Assembly: GCF_035474595.1 (NCBI RefSeq)
Contig: NZ_DATIND010000046.1
Location: 124,001-188,000, forward strand
Length of the DNA stretch: 64,000 bases
Direction: 5' to 3'
Source: Longimicrobium sp.
GTDB taxonomy: Bacteria; Gemmatimonadota; Gemmatimonadetes; Longimicrobiales; Longimicrobiaceae
How positions within the stretch are numbered: position 1 is the stretch's first letter; each line of letters opens with the position of its first letter. Position numbers and translations under genes: made by a program. Under the pieces are notes generated by a model. It was given only the letters and a program-made list of their open reading frames with translations. It was not told the DNA's origin and ran no database searches. This document shows, piece by piece, positions 45,395 through 53,451 of this stretch.

Positions 45395-46069
45395 TCAGGG
45401 TTCCGGCGGCGTGGGCGGGGTGATCCACACGCCCAGGGGGACGCGGACCCCGCGCCAGGTCACTACCTCCCCCGTCTCCTCCGCCCCGCCGATCCGCACG
45501 GCGGCGATGCTGCGCACCCCGCGCACGTGCTCGGGCGAGAGCCACGCGCCCACCGACGCGTCCCACACCTCGGCGCGCCCGCCGGCAATCGTGGCGCACG
45601 CCTCGTGGTAGGCGGCGCCCTCGCCGGCCCACGCGGGCGAGGCGCCGGAGCCGTTCCATCGCCCCAGCCAGTGCAGGTAGTGGTGCCGCTCCTGCCGCTG
45701 CACCAGCTGCACGGGCACGGCGCGCACCCCCCGCGCGCGGAACGCCTCCCGCGTCATGAAGGCGTGCGCGCCGCAGTCCAGCTCGTCCGCGCGGACGGCC
45801 TCGCACCAGTGCAGCGGCCACCGCGACGGCCCCCACGGCCACCGCCGGGGGATCCACCCCGGCCCGCCGTGGCCCTGCCAGAACGAGCGGTCCATGGCCA
45901 GGAACCAGGCCCGCGCCGCGGTGCAGCAGTTGCCGCCGTGGTGGGCCAGGCTCGAAGGGTTGCACGCGGCCCACGGCGCCCAGTCGGCGCCGGGTTCGAT
46001 CGCCGGCGCGGCGGGGGCGGGGTGCGCCGCGTGCGGGCGTCTCGCGCGGGTCTCAGCAGCAGGCGTCAT
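45395..46069 (-). CDS. Unrecognised protein with possible Cys-His-Asp (transglutaminase-like) triad (224 aa)
   Basis: ATG 46069 gives a 17-bp overlap with the upstream fusion gene, so the two are co-translated. Candidate catalytic residues in the order of papain/transglutaminase folds: Cys in ELDCGAHAFM, His in AAYHEACATI, Asp in AEVWDASVGAW. The N-terminal region has a conserved-looking HHGGNCCTAARAWFLAMD and a W-rich patch. No family name is certain. It probably acts on the product of the ATP-grasp/decarboxylase partner, for example as an amide- or ester-forming or hydrolysing enzyme. Confidence 0.6.
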   Translation of the reverse strand: MTPAAETRARRPHAAHPAPAAPAIEPGADWAPWAACNPSSLAHHGGNCCTAARAWFLAMDRSFWQGHGGPGWIPRRWPWGPSRWPLHWCEAVRADELDCGAHAFMTREAFRARGVRAVPVQLVQRQERHHYLHWLGRWNGSGASPAWAGEGAAYHEACATIAGGRAEVWDASVGAWLSPEHVRGVRSIAAVRIGGAEETGEVVTWRGVRVPLGVWITPPTPPEP

Positions 46070-48368
46070 CCAGCACTCCGCGTCCAAAGTTGTAGGCCAT
46101 GCTGGCGTCGTACGCGCCCGCGTCACCGATCACCAGCCGGTCGCCGGCGGCGAGGTCGTCCGGGAGCGCCAGGTCGCTGGCCAGGATGTCGGTTTCCATG
46201 CAGATGCGGCCCAGCAGCCGGTCGCCGCGGCCGCCCAGCGGCTCCCACGCGCCGCCGCGCCCGCAGGCGAAGACGCGGTGGGGATAGAAGGGCGCCATCG
46301 GCAGGTCCGAGATGGCGGCGTCGACCACCGCCTCCACCGCGCCGCCGCGGGCGCGGCGCACCTCCAGCACCGTGGTCACCAGCGCCATCGCGGGCTGCGC
46401 CATCGCCTTCCCCGGCTCCACCACGAAGCGCTCCAGCGCGGGAAGCGCCTCCGCCGCGGCCGCCATCATCCGGGGGAGCGAGGGAACGAGCTCGCGGTCG
46501 AAGTCGTCGGGGAACCATCCCCCGCCCACGTCCAGGCAGCGAACGGGGCGTCCCACGCCGTCCTGGATGGCCGCCGCCCAGTGCAGCACCCCCTCGAACG
46601 TCTCGAACCACCGCGCCGGCCCCAGCACGTCGCTGGCGAAGTGGAAGTGCAGCCCCAGCGCCTGCCCGGCGGGGAGCGCACGGAGGAGCGCCAGCGTCTC
46701 GGCGAAGCGCTCGGGCGCGCCCAGGCTGGCCCCGAAGCGCGACAGCTCCAGCGTGGCCGGGCGCAGCCGCAGCCCCAGGTAGCGGGCCCGCGGCCGCCCT
46801 TCCTTCAGCCAGAGCGCCAGGTTCTGCGGCGAGTCGGCGAAGGCGGCCACCATCTCGCCGTCCGGCTCGGGCCCGGCGGGCCAGCGCGGCGCCGGCCCGT
46901 TCAGCACCACCCGCTCGAACGGAAATCCCGCCGCCAGCGCCTGCCGCATCTCCGCCGCGCTGATCACCTCCGCGAACATCCCCGACGCTTCCGCCATGGC
47001 CAGCAGCGAGGGGTGGGGATTGGTCTTCACGCTGTACCCGAAGCCCAGCTCCACGCGCCCCCCCGCGCCGGCCGCCAGCGCGCGCTCCACCCGCGCGAAG
47101 CGCTCCCGCGCGGTGCGGGGGAGGAGGATGCGGCGCGGCGTGGGCAGCTCGCCGGCCAGCGCCTCGTCCAGGTCCCACTGCAGGGTGGCGGGCACCTCGG
47201 GGGCGGGGCGCCGCCGCGGGGCCGGCTTCTTCCCGTTGGCGCGCGGCTCGGGAGTGGTGTCGCCGCCGCGCGTCTCGGCCAGCCGGCGGGCCAGGTCCGG
47301 CATCCCCGACGGGTGCTTGGAGCCCGCGCGGCCGTCGTCCACCGGGTCGCGCACGGCGGGGAGCGGGTAGGCGGGAAGGATGGGGATCTCCATCACCACC
47401 CGCGTGAACTGCCGGCCGCGGAAGGGCGCGGCGGCGGGCGCGCCGAACCCGGCGGCCTGGAGGAGGCGCGCGGGAAGGTTGTGCCCGGCGAACGAGGCGG
47501 CGTGGATCCACGCGGGAAAGCGCGGGTTCCAGTCGATCAGGTGCATGGTCCCGTCCAGCGCGCGGACGTATTCCAGCTCGCCGCCGCCCGTCCACTCCAG
47601 CTCCGCCAGCACCTCGCGCAGCGGTTCGGCGATGGCGGGGTCCACCGGGCCCACGGCGCCGGCCCATGTCTTTCCCTCGTGCGTCTGCGTGTGCTTGCGC
47701 ATGTGCACGCAGTCCAGCAGTTCGCCCCGCCAGGCGCAGAACGCCACCGACTCTTCGGCGCCGGGCACGTGGCGCTGCACGAACAGGCTCTCCGTCCCCC
47801 AGATCTCGGAGAGGAAGGAGCGTGCGTGGCGGAACGAGGGCCAGTCGAGCGCGGGCATGGCCTCGTAGTTGGGGCCCTTCACCCACACCCGCCACCCGTG
47901 CTCGCGGCAGAAGCCGTGCAGCTCCCAGTCGGCCCGGCCGGCGGAGAGGAACGGGGGGATGGTGAAGGGGAGGAGCGCGGCCGCGGCCTCGATGGCGGGC
48001 TTGGCCACGCGGCGCAGCGACTCGCGCGGCGGCACCAGCGCGCCGTCGTCCGCGCCCAGGAAGGCGGACACGAACTCCACCTCCAGGTCCTGCCCGGGAA
48101 GCCAGACGGCGCCCCGGTCCAGCACCTCGCGGATGGCGGCCTGGTAGACGGGAAGGCGCATCTCCTTCCACGGCCGCTGCAGCCACACCTCGTCGAACAC
48201 CTCGCTGTGCAGCCCGGAGCTTTCCACCCCGTAGTCCACCGCCACCAGCCGCGCGTGCGGGTACGCCTCGCGCAGCGAGCGCGCCACGCCCAGCCCCGGC
48301 GACGGGTTGGGGCCGCTGTGCACGCCGGACAGGTAGCAGGTGAGCGGCGGGTGGGAATCTCGTGGCAT
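46053..48368 (-). CDS. ATP-grasp / PLP-dependent (group IV) decarboxylase fusion protein (771 aa)
   Basis: The N-terminal 350 residues resemble an ATP-grasp ligase: SGVHSGPNPSPGLGVARSLR, FVQRHVPGAEESVAFCAWRG and LIDWNPRFPAW. Residues about 395-771 are a fold-III PLP enzyme like DAP/ornithine decarboxylases: YSVKTNPHPSLLAMAEASGM (PLP Lys near 447), GLHFHFAS, LDVGGGWFPDDFD, VEPGKAMAQ, and the C-terminal GRICMETDIL plus GAYDASMAYNFGRG. Ends CC. It would activate and couple an amino or carboxy group and decarboxylate an amino acid, i.e. peptide/polyamine-like natural product synthesis. Start MPRDSHPPLTCYLSGVHS at 48368 preferred over 48440. Confidence 0.82.
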   Translation of the reverse strand: MPRDSHPPLTCYLSGVHSGPNPSPGLGVARSLREAYPHARLVAVDYGVESSGLHSEVFDEVWLQRPWKEMRLPVYQAAIREVLDRGAVWLPGQDLEVEFVSAFLGADDGALVPPRESLRRVAKPAIEAAAALLPFTIPPFLSAGRADWELHGFCREHGWRVWVKGPNYEAMPALDWPSFRHARSFLSEIWGTESLFVQRHVPGAEESVAFCAWRGELLDCVHMRKHTQTHEGKTWAGAVGPVDPAIAEPLREVLAELEWTGGGELEYVRALDGTMHLIDWNPRFPAWIHAASFAGHNLPARLLQAAGFGAPAAAPFRGRQFTRVVMEIPILPAYPLPAVRDPVDDGRAGSKHPSGMPDLARRLAETRGGDTTPEPRANGKKPAPRRRPAPEVPATLQWDLDEALAGELPTPRRILLPRTARERFARVERALAAGAGGRVELGFGYSVKTNPHPSLLAMAEASGMFAEVISAAEMRQALAAGFPFERVVLNGPAPRWPAGPEPDGEMVAAFADSPQNLALWLKEGRPRARYLGLRLRPATLELSRFGASLGAPERFAETLALLRALPAGQALGLHFHFASDVLGPARWFETFEGVLHWAAAIQDGVGRPVRCLDVGGGWFPDDFDRELVPSLPRMMAAAAEALPALERFVVEPGKAMAQPAMALVTTVLEVRRARGGAVEAVVDAAISDLPMAPFYPHRVFACGRGGAWEPLGGRGDRLLGRICMETDILASDLALPDDLAAGDRLVIGDAGAYDASMAYNFGRGVLDDACC

Positions 48369-48804
48369 CCAGGCTCCGCGGGTGGAATGGAGGGCGGCGT
48401 GCGCGACCGGCCCGCGCCGCAGGACACGCCGAAGCCGCACCGCCCGTGTGGGGGAGTGGAGCGGCTGCGCACTTCCCGCATGTGGCCGGACCGCCGGAAG
48501 CTCCCGGAGTGTTCAGGCCGTCATCAAGATGCAAAAAATAAAAATCCAACTCGGGCTCCCGCTCCGCAGCAGGCGCGCCGCCCGATCCGCAGCGCCGCCC
48601 GCCACCCTCGCAGCAGGGCCCGGGGAGCAGGATGGCAAGAAATCGGCCCGTATGGATGGGTGCGCCCCGCGGCACGGCGCATCGCGAGGGATGGAGATCG
48701 GAGTGCGCGGGGAGCGGCGTCTCCCGCTGGAAGCCGCGGGACCGTAGCTTGTGCCCGGAGCACTCACGCACTCACGCACTTCGCACTTTCGCACTTTCGC
48801 ACTC
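48369..48804. promoter_or_regulatory. Spacer upstream of decarboxylase and HipA genes
   Basis: Divergent intergenic region without a gene. On the minus strand an AT-rich patch near 48535-48560 contains TTGGAT, a 17-bp spacer and TGATGA, a poor promoter candidate for the fusion gene. At 48762-48804 is a tandem repeat (units CGCACTCA/CGCACTTT, period about 7-8) right before the HipA-like start. Confidence 0.45.
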
Positions 48805-52840: not shown

Positions 52841-53110
52841 ATGAAGAAGCTGCGGCTGCAGATCGACGAGCTGAGCGTGGAGTCGTTCCCGACGGCGGCG
52901 AAGGCGGAGGAGGCGGGGACGGTCCGCGGGTTCGACAGTACCACCGGAAACCAGATCATCTGCGAGTGTACCGACGAGGGCGGCGCCTGCGGCGGCAGCG
53001 CCGGGTGCGGGAGCTATGGCTGCGGCACCTTCGGCTGCAGCGGCGGGTGCGGCGGCGGCACCAACTACGCCACCTGCGCGACCGGCAACCAGATCATCTG
53101 CGAGTGCTGA
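52841..53110 (+). CDS. Pinensin-type lanthipeptide precursor-like peptide 1 (89 aa)
   Basis: Leader MKKLRLQIDELSVESFPTAA has the KKLxLxIDELxVESF consensus of pinensin-family leaders; a Gly/Thr-rich hinge (AGTVRGFDSTTG) follows, then a Cys-rich core with ten Cys. The motif TGNQIICEC occurs twice, at residues about 36-44 and at the C-terminus (81-89). Ribosome site AGAGGTG precedes ATG. No LanB/LanC, LanM, export or protease gene lies in the window, so it is an orphan precursor or is modified in trans. Likely a secreted RiPP. Confidence 0.8.
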   Translation: MKKLRLQIDELSVESFPTAAKAEEAGTVRGFDSTTGNQIICECTDEGGACGGSAGCGSYGCGTFGCSGGCGGGTNYATCATGNQIICEC

Positions 53111-53190
53111 TCCATCCGGCGCCGCCATCCCCGCGATGGCGGCGCCGCTCACGTCCCGAGATGATCTCTACCCAACCCGCGAGGTGTGTG

Positions 53191-53451
53191 ATGAAGAAGC
53201 TGCGGCTGAGCATCGACGAGCTGAACGTGGAGTCGTTTCTGACGGCAGGGAAGGCGGGCGATACGGGCACGGTGGAGGGGTTCGACAGCACCACCGGCGG
53301 CCAGCGCCTGTGCGGCTGCACCGACAACGGCGACCCGTGCGACACCGACGGCTGCGGCACCTACGCCTGCAGCGGCGGCTGCACGGTGGGCTGCCCGGAC
53401 ACGAACTACGTCACCTGCGCCACCGGCTCGCAGCGCCTTTGCGAGTGCTGA
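53191..53451 (+). CDS. Pinensin-type lanthipeptide precursor-like peptide 2 (86 aa)
   Basis: Tandem paralogue, 80 bp downstream. MKKLRLSIDELNVESFLTAG is the leader; the core has C-x-C pairs at both ends: TGGQRLCGC early and TGSQRLCEC at the C-terminus. Differs from peptide 1 in the same positions at both ends of the core. Ribosome site GAGGTGTG precedes ATG. Ends CEC like its neighbour. Followed by the inverted repeat 53475-53522. Confidence 0.8.
   Translation: MKKLRLSIDELNVESFLTAGKAGDTGTVEGFDSTTGGQRLCGCTDNGDPCDTDGCGTYACSGGCTVGCPDTNYVTCATGSQRLCEC

Follow-up and report, generated by a model that had tools for sequence, protein, structure and literature searches.

Two adjacent, intact genes in the window, a 64,000-nt stretch of the Longimicrobium sp. 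genome (C46:124001-188000), encode putative pinensin-type precursor peptides and belong to a set of at least 150 leader-bearing loci scattered through this genome. Each peptide carries the same kind of motif at both ends of its core, and the two copies, or arms, change together among homologues. We propose that the pair are class I (pinensin-type) precursors from a large dispersed set, that a split LanB and a LanC would modify them in trans, and that the product would be a pseudo-symmetric, bivalent peptide with twin rings; we give this account an even chance. The two genes are as follows.

52841 to 53110, + strand: precursor gene 1 (ORF 1), 89 aa, ATG start; pinensin-type leader, GTVRG leader-end motif, Cys-rich core
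53191 to 53451, + strand: precursor gene 2 (ORF 2), 86 aa, ATG start; pinensin-type leader, GTVEG, Cys-rich core

The N-terminal leaders read MKKLRLQIDELSVESF in ORF 1 and MKKLRLSIDELNVESF in ORF 2, just as in the original prediction, which had described a pinensin-type KKLRLxIDELxVESF leader in both peptides. In scans against NCBIfam and Pfam, NCBIfam NF038180 (leader_pinensin) was the only family match to both; Pfam gave none. Peptides 1 and 2 scored 22.6 and 20.3 bits as isolated proteins and 24.1 and 21.5 bits in the genomic search (cut-off, 24 bits), and members of the same precursor set score up to 29 bits elsewhere in this genome and up to 40 bits in relatives. No match to LanB or LanC was found across the window, which agrees with the absence already reported, and the pair is thus not clustered with such enzymes. 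Probable membership of the pinensin family is supported by the leader and by enzymes elsewhere in the genome, for a pair that scores near the model cut-off and lies apart from those enzymes.

Neighboring genes in the window encode HipA-like kinase, DUF3037, alpha/beta hydrolase, GNAT, alkyltransferase-like, glyoxalase, and MarR proteins, and no conservation of the window flanks was seen within ~3 kb of the homologues in genomes G011, G017, or G001. A k-mer search of the 150 bases upstream of the precursors gave no convincing common promoter; all it returned was ribosome-binding sites and pieces of the cores lying upstream. Elsewhere in the window, a 795-aa ORF (46053-48440, - strand) joins an ATP-grasp-like region (weak PF15632, below cut-off) to an ornithine/diaminopimelate-type PLP decarboxylase (PF02784, PF00278). 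It scored below the cut-off of every NCBIfam equivalog, and the fusion appears unusual.

A search for LanB and LanC elsewhere in the genome, suggested together with the original prediction, found a split LanB and a LanC on contig C23, where LanB-N, LanB-C, LanC, an ABC exporter, an HlyD-like protein, a TonB-type receptor, and four precursors are encoded on one strand.

C23, cut by the contig start: LanB-N
C23:15265-16203: LanB-C, the sole LanB-C match in the genome
C23:13814-14941: LanC, resembling LanM cyclase domains (TIGR03897)

C4 carries another LanB-N, which closely resembles the C23 copy without being identical to it and ends at the contig edge. In addition to LanC, the genome thus holds one LanB-C match and two LanB-N matches, and PF04738 and PF14028 fall on separate proteins. 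The two LanB-N proteins (L079:11501-14374 and L066:16214-17704), each cut by a contig end, have long Ala/Pro/Glu-rich stretches near the C-terminus.

When this genome was searched with NF038180, there were 99 matches at E<=1, of which 19 exceeded the family cut-off, and 122 distinct leader-bearing peptides could be read from the loci examined. Their cores are Cys-rich and largely unrelated, and the leader end bears GT[VIM] in 110 of the 122. With a profile built from 41 of the leaders (threshold E<=0.001), at least 150 matches were obtained in this genome and at least 150 in G011, followed by G014 (149), G017 (84), G001 (70), G007 (47), G009 (18), G015 (11), G004 (5), and G013 (1); the 11 other genomes of the family gave zero, and all 11 are without LanB. 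In this repertoire, many precursors scattered over the genome share one leader type, and few enzymes would modify them. The original prediction missed this set; its leader assignment, the presence elsewhere of the enzymes it proposed to look for, and the co-variation of its motifs are supported. Of the causes it offered, gene conversion is not supported and interaction between the core ends is not favored.

Across the 21 genomes of the family, in a count of leaders, LanB-N, and LanB-C, the same ten genomes and no others carry all three features. The chance of drawing the same 10 genomes out of 21 is 1 in 352,716 if genome relatedness is ignored. The window's own genus is split, with G010, G012, and G016 having no leaders, LanB-N, or LanB-C.

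Since this genome also encodes two LanM proteins, one LanKC, and two YcaO proteins, another enzyme could act on any given core. The window pair might be modified by a class II LanM (on C25 or C136) or by YcaO, or be left as unmodified disulfide-rich peptides, and a leader-bearing precursor does lie ~4.6 kb from the C25 LanM. We consider this improbable: leader presence tracks LanB presence in 21 of 21 genomes, and the C23 enzyme cluster includes precursors with the same leader. Near the LanM on C136 (1,082 aa; L080, G000:C136:1-12000) are two YcaO proteins of 410 and 413 aa, and the locus may be a mixed lanthipeptide/azoline cluster.

Several other loci of the repertoire were noted. At L062 (G000:C109:4000-7500), L048 (C97:3500-9500), L057 (C70:13000-16000), and L023 (C3:8606-11656), pinensin-leader precursors stand in tandem, about six or more to an array, and their cores are related yet diverging. 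The cores at L019, L058, L085, and L088 consist largely of repeated TCxxSC or TCDASCNGTC-like units, with up to ~19 Cys. A family on C119 (L069, G000:C119:9537-13073) and its relatives L163, L164, and L165 have three to four tandem TxCGG(V/I)xTCGxGC units of ~20 residues each; from one paralogue to the next the units change in concert and differ in number, and these cores resemble ordinary tandem repeats whose copy number changes.

In both window peptides, a TxxQxxCxC motif stands near the start of the core and again at the C-terminus, 46 residues apart in peptide 1 and 43 in peptide 2, and the two arms bracket the Cys/Gly-rich middle of the core.

52943 to 52969, + strand: arm 1 of peptide 1, TGNQIICEC, residues 35-43
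53081 to 53107, + strand: arm 2 of peptide 1, TGNQIICEC, residues 81-89, C-terminus
53293 to 53319, + strand: arm 1 of peptide 2, TGGQRLCGC
53422 to 53448, + strand: arm 2 of peptide 2, TGSQRLCEC, C-terminus

These sequences are exactly those quoted in the original prediction; its description of the core motif as mirrored was mistaken, as the arms form a direct repeat at both core ends and no mirror image. The arms of peptide 1 are identical at the protein level, and those of peptide 2 differ at two positions. The best internal match was equaled in 2 of 200 shuffles of the peptide 1 core and 5 of 200 of the peptide 2 core, and within a single core such a match is moderately unusual for Cys/Gly-rich sequence. 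Chance is untenable as the origin of the layout because all five homologues have the identical architecture, and the twin-arm observation is confirmed.

The five homologues were found by searching 21 genomes of the same family and come from three related genomes: G011 and G017, with one each, and G001, with three in tandem. No further credible homologue was found in 395 genomes of the phylum or 154 of the order. A pattern scan of genome contigs for TCATGxQxxCxC gave 12 places with no precursor among them on inspection, and a pattern scan of viral contigs gave no match. Arms 1 and 2 of the seven peptides read as follows.

Peptide 1 (P0001): TGNQIICEC and TGNQIICEC
Peptide 2 (P0002): TGGQRLCGC and TGSQRLCEC
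G011: TAGQRLCGC and TGSQRLCEC
G001a: TCFQRICTC and TGFQRVCEC
G001b: TCFQIMCTC and TGFQIMCSC
G001c: TCFEDLCTC and TGFQDLCEC
G017: TGNQIICEC and TGHQIICEC

Thr and Cys for ring formation are invariant in all 14 arms. In every peptide the two arms share the residue after Q (7/7; I/I, R/R, or D/D), and the second residue after Q matches in six of the seven. Random pairing of arms among peptides equaled the observed match in 4 of 5,040 arrangements (P = 0.0008, all seven peptides) and, when the likely orthologue in G011 was omitted, in 2 of 720 (P = 0.0028). On a tree of the seven peptides from four genomes, built after the arms had been masked, the residue after Q requires three changes in arm 1, three in arm 2, and three when the arms are scored as a pair; all are concerted. 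With seven homologues from four genomes, this amounts to about three independent events. The coordinated change of both motifs claimed in the original prediction is therefore borne out at this residue, where the case that would count against it, one motif changing alone, is absent; at the positions under weaker constraint, before Q and between the last two Cys, that case is present.

Co-variation of two distant segments could reflect contact between the arms in the mature peptide, through interlocked rings, strand pairing, or arm-arm disulfides, with the residues changing so as to preserve it; an interaction of the core ends had been part of the original prediction. A predicted model does place strands at residues 38-42 and 84-88, at a confidence too weak for use: AlphaFold, run on the seven-row alignment, gave a mean pLDDT of 42.7 and was uninformative. 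The paired residues themselves are R/R, D/D, or I/I, whereas contacting residues would be expected to be complementary more often. Because even charged residues are matched by identical ones, direct pairing of the arms is not our first choice, and we regard contact as unlikely. Two equivalent rings presenting the same Q-x-x face, to a repeated or dimeric target or in a symmetric assembly, would be a better match to this identity.

Gene conversion, the other cause offered in the original prediction, or repeated local copying could also keep the arms alike with no functional coupling. Homogenization does occur in this peptide set, where other tandem-repeat cores (the C119 family and relatives) change together and vary in copy number, and the arms of P0001 are identical as protein. 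At the codon level, the arms within a peptide are no more alike than arms of different peptides: synonymous mismatches stand at 11 of 48 (23%) within peptides and 42 of 219 (19%) between them, in a comparison whose power is limited by GC-rich codon bias and the small sample. The D-L shared by the arms of G001c is encoded by GAT CTT in one and GAC CTC in the other, and the L in the arms of P0002 by CTG and CTT. Residues specific to one arm also flank the matching block in each lineage: in P0002, G/S precedes Q and G/E lies between the two Cys, and all three G001 peptides have C/G after Thr (arm 1/arm 2). As these residues directly flank the block, conversion tracts would have to be ~10 to 15 nt long. 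The codon-level test thus came out against gene conversion as the cause of the likeness, with evidence short of proof, and we think this explanation has little chance of being right. Because synonymous differences are no rarer within peptides than between them and the flanking residues are arm specific, the data favor selection as the probable force keeping the two arms alike.

Under the explanation we prefer, twin rings made in trans, the shared leader (KKLxLxxxxLxVESF...GTVxG/A) would take each peptide to the LanB-N plus LanB-C dehydratase and the LanC cyclase on another contig, and would be removed near GTVxG/A. The core of this subfamily would offer two equivalent TxxQxxCxC arms at its ends, and on the likeliest reading the two arms form equivalent Thr-Cys thioether rings with the same Q-x-x surface. 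The product would then be a pseudo-symmetric, bivalent ligand, and selection on a common target, or on a symmetric assembly, would make both arms change together. We infer the modification in trans, the ring pattern, and the bivalency from the leader set, the enzymes, and the arm sequences; for the role of the product, a competitive or signaling peptide is our default guess. The broadest form of the proposal, in which a single split LanB and a single LanC serve about 150 or more mostly unlinked precursors per genome and selection keeps the two end rings of the pseudo-symmetric, bivalent peptides of one subfamily identical, so that they are re-targeted together, we hold only tentatively and think somewhat more apt to fail than to stand. 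If the split LanB and LanC do modify all of these cores, they would form the class I equivalent of ProcM and be useful for making libraries, and the twin-ended subfamily would offer a direct test of joint selection on two ring copies in one peptide.

Pinensins are class I products of Chitinophaga pinensis made with a split LanB (Mohr et al. 2015, as cited in PMC7268733), and the LanC of the pinensin group is related to the cyclase domains of class II LanM (PMC7268733). The system described here shares the leader type, the separate glutamylation and elimination proteins, and the LanM-like LanC (C23, TIGR03897). Unlike in pinensins, the precursors are mostly unlinked to the enzymes and number at least 150 in this genome, and their cores are unrelated, have up to ~19 Cys, and in this subfamily end in twin arms. 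In multicore precursors of the graspetide/microviridin type, a motif is likewise repeated within a single precursor, but there the repeats are several separate cores (PMC5934393, PMC8939145), whereas here two arms bracket one Cys-rich core; no graspetide-type ATP-grasp ligase was found adjoining the pair. No published description of this repertoire was found in the literature searched, most subscription papers lying outside its coverage. The organization resembles that of the prochlorosins (ProcA/ProcM, class II), in which one leader family also serves many divergent, scattered cores and few modifying enzymes. Prochlorosin identity itself was rejected, as the leader is of the NF038180 type with no Nif11 or other NCBIfam or Pfam match, and the precursor counts differ, prochlorosins numbering at most 83 in the strains given in PMC10783134, against at least 150 leader matches here. 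Prochlorosins pair a class II LanM with a Nif11 leader, whereas the pinensin leader here goes with split class I enzymes; pinensin-type leaders and a prochlorosin-like dispersed repertoire, each of a known kind, are here combined with split class I enzymes.
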